Below, one piece after another: positions 58,577 to 61,606 of a stretch of 64,000 nt of DNA (positions are counted from its first letter, which is position 1; each line of letters starts with the position of its first letter). Source of the DNA: Duganella dendranthematis (GTDB lineage Bacteria > Pseudomonadota > Gammaproteobacteria > Burkholderiales > Burkholderiaceae_D); contig NZ_CP051684.1 in NCBI RefSeq assembly GCF_012849375.1, forward strand, positions 1,116,001 through 1,180,000, read 5' to 3'. A program made the position numbers and the translations under genes. A model generated the notes under the pieces. It worked only from the letters and a program-made list of their open reading frames with translations. It made no database searches and had not been told where the DNA came from.

Positions 58577-58930
58577 TTACTTGCTGCCGCGCGAACCCAG
58601 CAGCTTGGAGATGCCGTAACCAGCGGCCGCTGCCACCAGTACCGAGATCACCGGATTGGCGCGCACGTGGGTGCGGCTCGCTTCGGTGAAGTTTTTGTAC
58701 GATTCAACGACTTGCTTGCTGCGTGCGGCCAGCGTGTCGGAGGTGCTTTCCACGGTGTCGGCAACTTTGTCGACGCCGGTGTGGGCCTGGCTGGCCAGAC
58801 GGTCGGTGGTCGGCGGCACTTTGTCGGCGACTTTGTCAATGGCAGCGTGGGCGTCGGCGCGCAGGTCTTTGCCGATTTGGGTAACGCCGTCGCGGGTGCT
58901 GTTGATTTTGGTATCGATGCTGTTATCCAT
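58577..58930 (-). CDS. DUF883 (ElaB/YqjD-like) membrane protein
   Basis: Small protein of 117 residues with a long polar helix (DTKINSTRDGVTQIGKDLRA; TGVDKVADTVESTSDTLAAR) and a single C-terminal membrane helix, NPVISVLVAAAAGYGISKLL, ending in basic residues. This is the layout of the ElaB/YqjD family, tail-anchored proteins that in E. coli bind ribosomes in stationary phase. The long frame upstream of 58930 is a shadow. GAGAGGAT precedes the ATG at 58930. The neighbouring catalase supports a stationary-phase or stress role. Confidence 0.82.
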   Translation of the reverse strand: MDNSIDTKINSTRDGVTQIGKDLRADAHAAIDKVADKVPPTTDRLASQAHTGVDKVADTVESTSDTLAARSKQVVESYKNFTEASRTHVRANPVISVLVAAAAGYGISKLLGSRGSK

Positions 58931-59110
58931 AATGCGATCCTCTCGTGGGTTGTTCGGGGTTGGAAGGCTTACGATAGGCTTGACCAGCGCGCTTGACCGT
59001 GCGGGAACACACAGTGTGCAAAATGGCCGGCTATGTGAAATGACACACGGACGCGGCTGCCACATCGGAGCATGCTATACGTGAGCCATACCTACTTTTG
59101 GAGAGCGGCA

Positions 59111-61606
59111 ATGTTTCCCATCTCATCCCTGACGCCATCGGCGACGACGGAGTTGCAAGCGGTCAACCGCGCTTCGGAAACGGCGGCGGTGAATAACGCC
59201 ACCATCAATGCGGTCGGCAGCGCGCTGGATGCGCCACCGGCGGCGTCGGTGACGGTGGATTTGTCGCCGGTAGCGGGCTTTCTGTTGTCGGTGACCAACG
59301 CTCAGCAGCAGTTATCTCAGGTGCAGGGCAACACCTTGCTCGACACTGCGCAACGCGCCGATACCGTCAATACGGCGGTGCAGAATGTGGTGGATGCGTT
59401 CAACCTGCTGCCGACTGTGGATTTCGATCAGGGCCAACCGCTGCAAGGATCTTTGTTGAACAACCTGGTCAGCAGCCTGAACCAGCAGCTCAACGATAGC
59501 ACCACCACGCAGGCGCAGAATCTGGCGCAACTGGGCGTGACCTTGCAGCCGCCGTTGCTGTCGGCACTAACCGGCGGCCTGTCGCTGGAACCGGAGCAAC
59601 TCCGCGCCGCCTTCAACGCCAACAATCAGCAGACCACATCGACGCTGGACAATACCCTGAACAATTTCCGCACGCTGGCAACCGAATTTGCCGAGCAACT
59701 CAGCGTGGCGGGCAGCGCGCAGTTTCCTGCGTTGGGCAGCAATCCGTTCCAGAGTCTGAACGTGCAGCAGCGCGCCGGCTTGACGCCGGAAGAACTGTCG
59801 GCCAATACGCGACTGGACCTGGCGCGACAGGAAATCGATAACCTGTCGCAGAACCCGCTGCCGGAAACGGCGGCCGACCGCTTGTCGGCACAGCGCGCGC
59901 AACTGGAGCAAACGAATACGGCGCAGCAGCCGGAAACGCCATCGCCCATCGTGCAGCAACAGCAGGCGGAAGCGGCGCAACAGGCACAGGCCAACGTCCA
60001 GCAGGCCAATCTGCAACAAGCCCTGCTTGACCAGGCCACCACCGACCAGCAGGCACAAGCCACCCAGCAAGCCAATCTGGCGCAAACCCAGCAGGCTCAG
60101 GCCGCACAGCAGACCAACGCCCAGCAACAGGCCAATCAGGCACTGGCGCAACAGCAATTGCAGGATCAGCAAACCAACGCCCAGCAGCTGCAGGCCAACC
60201 AGTTGACCGCGCAGCAAACCCAGCAAGCCGCACAGCAGGCGCAGGCCGATCAATTGCGGACGGCGCAACTGGCGCAGGCCGACCAGACCGCCGATGCCCA
60301 GCGAGCGCAGTTGCTGCAAGCAGCGACGCAGCAAGCCAACCTGACGCAGGCCCAACAGACGCAGGCGGCGCTCAACCAGCAAACCCAGCTCGACCAGGCA
60401 CGCGCCGCGCAACAAGCGCAAGTGCAGCAGGCGGCCACGCAGGTGCAGAACGCCCAGCAGGCGCAGGCGGCCCAGGTATCGGCCTTGCAGCAAACCTTGC
60501 AACTGAATCAGGCCGCGCAGCAAGCGCAACAGGAGGCTCGCGCCGCACAGGAAGCCCAGGCGGCGCGCCAGGGCCAGCAAGCGCAGAATGCACAGCAAGC
60601 GCAAGGCACGCTGCAAAGCCAGCAGGCACAGACGTTGCAACGAGCCCAAGCCACATTGCAAGGGCAGCAGGCGCAGAACGCGCAGCAAGCCCAGGCCGCG
60701 TTGCAAGGACAGCAGGCGCAGCAGACGCTGGCGGCGCAACGCGCCCAAACCAGTCTGCAGGCGCAAAATGCCCGACAGGCCCAGAATGCAGCGAATGCGG
60801 CGTCGGCACAGCAAGCCCAGCAAGCCGCACCGACCGCCGCCGAGCAGGCGCAGCAAACCGCGCTGACCGCAGCCCAGCAGGCGCAGGCCACCGCACAGGC
60901 GCAAACAGCGCGTCAGCAGGCCACGGCCACCGTCACCACCGCCACCGGCGCCGCACAGCAGGCGCAGCAACAAGCCGTGGCGGCCCAGAACGCCGTACAG
61001 AACATCCCGACCTTGCCGGCCAACGCCACCGCCGCGCAGCAAGCCCAGACCGCGCAGGCCGCTGCCGCCCAGGTGGCGATCGCCAACTCGGCAGCGCAGT
61101 CGGCCGCCGTGCAGGCCCAGGCCGCGCAGAATGCCGCTGACGCCATGGCCGCGCAGAACGCAGCCGCCGTGGCGGCCGCCGCGCAATCTCGCCTGGCGCA
61201 GAATAACGTCGGCACCGCCGATGCCGCCACCACCGCAGCCAACGTCGCCGCGCAACAAGCCGCGGCCGTACAGCAGACCGCCGCCAGCCTGGCCGCCGCC
61301 AACGCTGCCGCCGCCGACGCCAACCAGCAAGCCGCTGCCGCCGCCAATGCCGCTCAGCAGGCAGCCGCAGCGCAAGCCGCCGCCGAGCAGACCAACGCCG
61401 CCCAAGTGGCCGCAGCACAGAACGTCGTCAACACGCCGGCCGATCTGCGCGCCAATCCAGCGCTGGCCGCCGCCATTGCCGCCTACAACGTCAACGACAT
61501 TGCCGGCACCACCGCCAATGCCGCCCGCGCCGCCACCGCCGCGATTCCGCGTGTGGGCGCGGTCAACGCCACCAGCGCCACCCGCAGCATCGGCAACGCA
61601 CCGTAA
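59111..61606 (+). CDS. Giant Gln/Ala-rich low-complexity protein
   Basis: Protein of 831 residues that I do not recognise. Residues 1-240 have ordinary composition (MFPISSLTPSATTELQAVNR; VTVDLSPVAGFLLSVTNAQQ). From about 275 to 790 the sequence is almost only Gln and Ala with Asn, Thr, Leu and Arg, as irregular units such as QQAQNAQQAQ. The tail is Ala/Thr-rich. I find no Lys, Cys, Trp or His in the whole chain and a single Tyr. Strong alpha-helix and coiled-coil propensity is expected. No signal peptide or membrane helix is visible. GGAGAG lies 5 bases before the ATG at 59111; the frame opens earlier without such a site. It is divergent from the DUF883 gene. Confidence 0.8.
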   Translation: MFPISSLTPSATTELQAVNRASETAAVNNATINAVGSALDAPPAASVTVDLSPVAGFLLSVTNAQQQLSQVQGNTLLDTAQRADTVNTAVQNVVDAFNLLPTVDFDQGQPLQGSLLNNLVSSLNQQLNDSTTTQAQNLAQLGVTLQPPLLSALTGGLSLEPEQLRAAFNANNQQTTSTLDNTLNNFRTLATEFAEQLSVAGSAQFPALGSNPFQSLNVQQRAGLTPEELSANTRLDLARQEIDNLSQNPLPETAADRLSAQRAQLEQTNTAQQPETPSPIVQQQQAEAAQQAQANVQQANLQQALLDQATTDQQAQATQQANLAQTQQAQAAQQTNAQQQANQALAQQQLQDQQTNAQQLQANQLTAQQTQQAAQQAQADQLRTAQLAQADQTADAQRAQLLQAATQQANLTQAQQTQAALNQQTQLDQARAAQQAQVQQAATQVQNAQQAQAAQVSALQQTLQLNQAAQQAQQEARAAQEAQAARQGQQAQNAQQAQGTLQSQQAQTLQRAQATLQGQQAQNAQQAQAALQGQQAQQTLAAQRAQTSLQAQNARQAQNAANAASAQQAQQAAPTAAEQAQQTALTAAQQAQATAQAQTARQQATATVTTATGAAQQAQQQAVAAQNAVQNIPTLPANATAAQQAQTAQAAAAQVAIANSAAQSAAVQAQAAQNAADAMAAQNAAAVAAAAQSRLAQNNVGTADAATTAANVAAQQAAAVQQTAASLAAANAAAADANQQAAAAANAAQQAAAAQAAAEQTNAAQVAAAQNVVNTPADLRANPALAAAIAAYNVNDIAGTTANAARAATAAIPRVGAVNATSATRSIGNAP

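Follow-up and report, generated by a model that had tools for sequence, protein, structure and literature searches.

The subject of this analysis is a single gene of Duganella dendranthematis, found in a window of 64,000 nucleotides (contig NZ_CP051684.1, positions 1,116,001 to 1,180,000). It occupies window positions 59111-61606 on the forward strand, stop codon included, and encodes a protein of 831 amino acids. Profile comparisons and predicted models identify the head of this protein and of its relatives as the D1 helical core of the flagellar filament cap protein FliD (HAP2, Pfam PF07195/PF02465; structures PDB 5h5v, 9m6i, 6sih), from which the D2/D3 plate is missing. The overall anatomy, a FliD D1 core followed by a spacer and a C-terminal cap, is assigned with high confidence. 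The protein apparently belongs to a single-gene family of flagellated Burkholderiales that seems to be undescribed: no description of it was found in a literature search, from which most subscription journals were absent.

Relation of the head to FliD

The folded core spans approximately residues 52-203 (window positions 59264-59719, plus strand, as for all parts of the gene), conservation extends to about residue 262, and the Gln/Ala run occupies about residues 282-775, limits slightly different from those first noted. The original prediction, made from the sequence alone, assigned the protein to no family and regarded its first 240 residues as an ordinary head. The first statement is superseded by the FliD assignment, and the head turned out to be the informative part.

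Comparison of full-length proteins with Pfam, PHROGs and NCBIfam yielded nothing useful, and heads alone were needed. The sets of family heads included A1 (39 heads), A2 (22 heads) and A3 (27 heads, more diverse). Aligned by hhalign with seven FliD proteins, all of which contain both Pfam FliD_N and FliD_C, the A3 profile scored 97.6% (E 2.8e-12) over residues 81-196. Pfam FliD_C matches 17 of the 39 A1 heads (best E 4e-8) and 12 of the 27 A3 heads. Individual Pfam scores were available for 20 of the 39 heads; the curated cut-off of 25.4 bits is exceeded by L068 (33.4) and by the first copy of a tandem pair in L066 (25.7). One head has a weak match to the NCBIfam FliD equivalog (E 0.018).

In 10 of 23 FliD-like genes the A3 profile matches in two blocks, within residues 14-117 and 255-459, that flank the D2/D3 insertion; all ten of these genes have FliD_C and nine have FliD_N. 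The blocks are 138-207 residues apart in the FliD-like genes and adjacent in the family head. In the predicted model of the head, only a short turn separates helices 53-73 and 79-99, at the place where FliD has the D2/D3 plate. When Foldseek's list was re-examined with VIA-align, rows 1-9 were FliD for both structure models. The features shared with FliD are a helical D1 core with a beta hairpin, the motif LAxxGITxx...LSLDxxxLxxAF, and often an N-terminus of the form M-x-I/V-S. A start consisting of M, at most three residues, I/L/V and S/T is seen, without a control count, in 32 of 34 complete proteins of the Duganella set (five truncated ones of 39 were left out) and in 12 of 17 further proteins. 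The latter, which include near-copies, come from other genera in 16 cases and from the same genus in one (L143). In the window protein, the N-terminal segment (residues 1-51, 59111-59263) begins with MFPISS, continues with a stretch without predicted structure (predicted local distance difference test, pLDDT, below 50) and may be an export signal.

Some results weigh against this assignment. Foldseek itself reported nothing significant for either model, and for the first model FliD was outside the top 50. The window's own head has no Pfam FliD_C match, the link to FliD there being made by profile and model, and the missing hits in its own genome count in the same direction. As regards the ends of the protein, FliD_N (PF02465) has no match with E of 1 or less, either in the full protein or in residues 1-240, and a FliD-type start motif was not seen by eye. 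Terminal helices of the FliD type are not recognisable in the sequence or in the predicted models. The C-terminal helix after D1 is not recognisable by sequence; in L072 (255 residues) a helix predicted in the cap region (residues 205-221) follows the core, as a possible equivalent. A search of PDB sequences with the head profile returned only a designed protein (E 0.74).

The family differs from FliD in the absence of the D2/D3 plate, of FliD_N and of recognisable terminal helices, in the addition of a spacer and a C-terminal cap, and in the location of the gene outside fliD-fliS. In lacking D2 and D3 it resembles an engineered FliD of Pseudomonas aeruginosa. That laboratory work (PMC8533109) reports only a small loss of motility upon deletion of D2 and D3 and impaired motility upon removal of 18-69 C-terminal or 19-77 N-terminal residues of Pseudomonas FliD, D1 being the part that matters. 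However, the engineered protein retains both ends, whereas the family protein has no recognisable ones. Since the ends are needed in Pseudomonas FliD, ordinary capping is not expected of the family protein.

Composition, spacer and C-terminal cap

The 831-residue protein contains 232 Ala (28%), 190 Gln (23%), two Met, few Arg, a single Tyr (residue 792) and no Lys, Cys, Trp or His, in agreement with the composition originally noted by eye. The 51 complete proteins of the two sets together (29,672 residues) contain no Cys (184 expected), 6 Trp (501 expected), 71 His (679 expected) and 96 Lys (767 expected), where the expected counts come from 28 neighbour proteins of the same loci (0.62% Cys, 1.69% Trp, 2.29% His, 2.58% Lys); chance does not explain the bias. 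For Lys the depletion is milder in the proteins that do not belong to the Duganella set (0.99%). Cys is absent from nineteen FliD-like proteins, which have two Trp and six His but normal Lys (3.25%) and Tyr (2.31%), compared with 0.08% and 0.20% in the Duganella set. Thus the lack of Cys, Trp and His is a FliD-type trait that fits export as an unfolded chain, and the shortage of Lys and Tyr is new relative to FliD.

The core is followed by a linker (residues 204-281, 59720-59953), where the pattern ETAADRLxAQRAxLEQ is kept in close relatives, by the low-complexity Gln/Ala spacer (residues 282-775, 59954-61435), and by the cap (residues 776-831, 61436-61603) with the conserved motif PADLRANPALAAAIAAYNVNDIAG...IPRVGAV...RSIGNAP. 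Most full proteins share the plan of an approximately 200-residue head, a low-complexity middle and a C-terminal cap. The spacer varies in length and filling: it is Gln/Ala-rich in the close set, and elsewhere rich in Thr/Pro/Ala, Ser/Asn or Ala, or again in Gln/Ala. Total protein lengths range from 245 to 862 residues, and three proteins whose heads are 95% identical have 831, 785 and 760 residues.

The cap has the consensus (N/D)PxxAAAIAAYxxxD, after which comes an end rich in proline and valine. Each of the 29 complete tailed Duganella-set proteins has it, as do four tail-less proteins; L089 has no clear cap motif. Outside Duganella, L139, L141, L144 and L147 have similar hydrophobic C-termini (NIDVNV or VVDVSV, for example). 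The head is joined straight to the cap in L063, L072, L073 and the second L066 copy, and the first L066 copy has neither middle nor cap. As relatives keep head and cap without the middle, the stretch is removable and of free length, which supports the role of a spacer among those suggested originally. For the helical fibre suggested along with it, the coiled-coil form finds no support in the plain residue autocorrelation over positions 271-740, which has no heptad signal (below background at lags 7 and 14) and peaks at 3, 6, 15 and 24; the stretch may be a single long helix or disordered.

The spacer had also been described as a kept composition and not a product of fresh slippage. The codons are mixed, as noted then (Gln: CAG 130, CAA 60; Ala: GCC 118, GCG 78, GCA 27, GCT 9). 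The slippage part of the statement is only partly right, given fast shifts in length and residual diverged tandem units: one of 45 bp repeated 3.3 times (74% match) and one of 33 bp repeated 2.4 times (82%). The kept composition is upheld by low dN/dS values (see below) and by substitutions in Gln codons. Over six pairs in which no member occurs twice, none of the 31 single-base differences in Gln codons after residue 262 involves Lys or His; in 13 neighbour genes the count is 5 of 16 (Fisher p 0.003). The avoidance of Lys and His thus looks selected. In the heads, one of 11 such changes involves Lys or His (one His).

Distribution and proposed role

The window head used as a query has matches in 47 of 74 genomes of the genus and in 8 of 195 genomes of the family Oxalobacteraceae. 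The A2 profile has matches in 50 of the 195, including 36 strong ones (E at or below 1.2e-16), and the wider A3 profile in 68 of 399 genomes sampled from the order, with ten reaching E 1e-20 or lower. The low-scoring matches (14 of the 50 A2 genomes and 58 of the 68 A3 genomes) were excluded as family members; ten low-scoring A3 matches were checked, and all have FliD_C. Matches in G498, G583, G334 and G438 (A3, E 1e-12 to 1e-15) were not counted, G583 and G334 being among the ten FliD genes. Phage and plasmid collections contained no match. In one of the family alignments (A5), row L103 was cut short on the C-terminal side through an error in its coordinates.

All 36 strong Oxalobacteraceae positives have FlhA, compared with 178 of 195 genomes overall (hypergeometric 0.026); for the sample from the order the figures are ten of ten positives and 279 of 399 genomes (hypergeometric 0.027). 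These values ignore ancestry, and two genomes occur in both samples. The co-occurrence agrees with flagellar dependence and is not a demonstration of it. There is a single FlhA-type gene in eight of the 36 strong positives and in all seven genomes of a second group (G063 is in both groups), and two in the source genome. As positives with a single FlhA-type gene exist, the family seems able to do without an injectisome.

We suggest that the protein is an orphan descendant of FliD that became detached from the flagellar cluster and may have kept a FliD-type N-terminal signal. It would be exported unfolded via the flagellar export gate, hence the absence of Cys and near-absence of Trp and His. 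Outside the cell the D1 core would dock on a flagellar structure, and the charge-poor Gln/Ala arm would hold the C-terminal helix at a distance, making the protein a tether, an adhesin or an accessory of the cap or filament. Selection in the arm would maintain solubility and the exclusion of Lys, His and aromatic residues, not exact order or length. We give about even chances to this account of the whole chain as an exported, flagellum-linked accessory with a docking core, a spacer and a presenting end. A more specific proposal is tentative and rather doubtful, namely, that these proteins form a separate class of flagellar accessories that lost the plate and the filament-joining ends, dock by the D1 core and present the conserved C-terminal helix on the charge-poor arm.

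If this last proposal holds, a flagellum-borne tether would be spread over Burkholderiales and have been overlooked as "hypothetical" because of low complexity and missing Pfam hits; if exported, it would be an unknown flagellar component in many environmental bacteria. For a flagellar protein as well studied as FliD, a natural D1-core protein also offers a test of D1 by itself. The low-complexity region, nearly free in length and filling but policed in composition, is a clear case of a selected spacer as opposed to noise.

One possibility is that the protein acts in the cytoplasm as a regulator or decoy whose D1 core binds FliD, flagellin or chaperones and tunes filament assembly, the spacer keeping it soluble or condensing. 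Indeed, the gene lies outside the flagellar cluster (at 1,175 kb of the contig; the FliD_C, FliS and FliK genes are clustered at about 884-889 kb, G000:C1) and has its own upstream element, and there are no recognisable terminal helices for joining a cap. However, the family lacks Cys and nearly lacks Trp, like FliD, which would be needless in the cytoplasm, and we consider this role unlikely.

FliK has a low-complexity stretch in an exported protein, and by analogy a disordered Gln/Ala middle might measure length as a ruler or tape. Pfam Flg_hook (FliK, PF02120) weakly matches 18 of the 39 heads (best E 2e-4). The window's own head matches it at about 1e-3. However, this head reaches 19.1-19.4 bits against a curated cut-off of 29.8, whereas the best FliD_C match is stronger and above its cut-off, and among the diverse A3 heads FliK matches three and FliD_C 12 of 27. 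The source genome has a separate FliK gene adjoining fliD and fliS, and the wide range of total lengths is unlike a ruler. This function is thus highly improbable. Even less probable is a secreted or tip-like protein of the injectisome: the model also resembles SipD, but the nine best FliD rows are about 2-4 Z units above, no sequence match to SipD was seen, the Pfam matches of the heads include no tip-protein family (HpaP once, E 0.086), and there are the positives with a single, untyped FlhA-type gene.

Selective constraint, upstream region and neighbouring genes

It is similarly improbable that the gene is adrift, with a tail formed by compositional drift and a protein on its way out. The single-sequence window query has no match in 27 of 74 genomes of the genus, which would fit this, as would the absence of the tail in five rows. 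On the tree, the tail-less state needs three changes, at least two of them forced by well-supported branches, and L063, L072 and the first L066 copy are on long branches. However, the branch of the tailed L065 is equally long, the upstream element and the C-terminal cap are conserved, and no stop was reported within any match listed in the genus genomes. Loss or stops in relatives had been named at the outset as evidence against the gene; the stops are not seen, and the genomes without a match remain on that side. A dN/dS ratio without constraint had been named as well, whereas among the three closest sequences, the window's included, the head gives 0.075-0.082. Over all pairs tried, which overlap and include some dS values above 1, the ratio is 0.06-0.28 for the head (11 pairs), 0.05-0.29 for the spacer (10 pairs) and 0.08-0.39 for the C-terminal 60 residues (9 pairs). 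The GC content at codon positions 1, 2 and 3 is 0.74, 0.49 and 0.78, which together with the dN/dS of the head indicates a constrained gene.

The start at 59111 coincides with the aligned start of close relatives. It is preceded by the Shine-Dalgarno box GGAGAG (59100-59105, plus strand), noticed originally, of which GGAG is kept in relatives. A longer frame from ATG 59072 would encode 844 residues, its extra part having variable spacing among relatives. An antisense open frame of 612 residues (59567-61405, minus strand) runs across the spacer; to judge by codon bias in the forward frame, it is likely a shadow.

The gene has its own upstream region, as had been stated. The conserved element TATGTGAAATGACACACGGAC (59032-59052, plus strand) occurs with at most two mismatches in 32 of 39 relatives, the window included. 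These 32 have TATGTGAAnTGnCACACnGAC in common, 50-72 bases ahead of the start (the best match in L073 is at 186), and the seven without the element are the most distant ones. The box GCATGCTA (59070-59077, plus strand), conserved in the upstream alignment, is a candidate -10 promoter element, and a similar box, GCATACTA, is found ahead of members in another genus. No other site in the genome is within two mismatches of the upstream element, and thus it looks gene-specific. At three mismatches there are four other places compared with two in the control, and a regulon was rejected. Readings of the element as a sigma-28, sigma-54 or CRP site were judged by eye only and are unsupported.

The tandem head proteins of L066 (L066:6250-7825) each have their own upstream element, the second copy included; the first lacks spacer and cap, and the second is a head-cap protein. 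The upstream sequence of L073 suggests that it is the L066 locus after loss of most of the first copy. In L076 (5743-8262) the relative lies inside an open frame of 1849 residues, with about 1000 open codons ahead of its start.

No gene neighbourhood common across genera was seen by eye among the neighbours listed, for which no domain scan was made; the gene calls used there include antisense shadows and lack the family gene of L149, L154 and L156. Besides the fliS-adjacent gene, the source genome encodes two more FliD_C proteins, at about 6,145 kb (L161) and 4,749 kb (L160). At L159:4317-6293 a FliD_C frame lies beside fliS, and its scanned part does not match FliD_N. In the window, the gene is flanked by a small unnamed protein and a catalase on one side and by a periplasmic binding protein and a heme oxygenase on the other. 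The small protein is divergent (58577-58948, minus strand), adjoins the long catalase, and has the conserved stretch ACCGTGCGGAAGCTAACAA in its upstream region.
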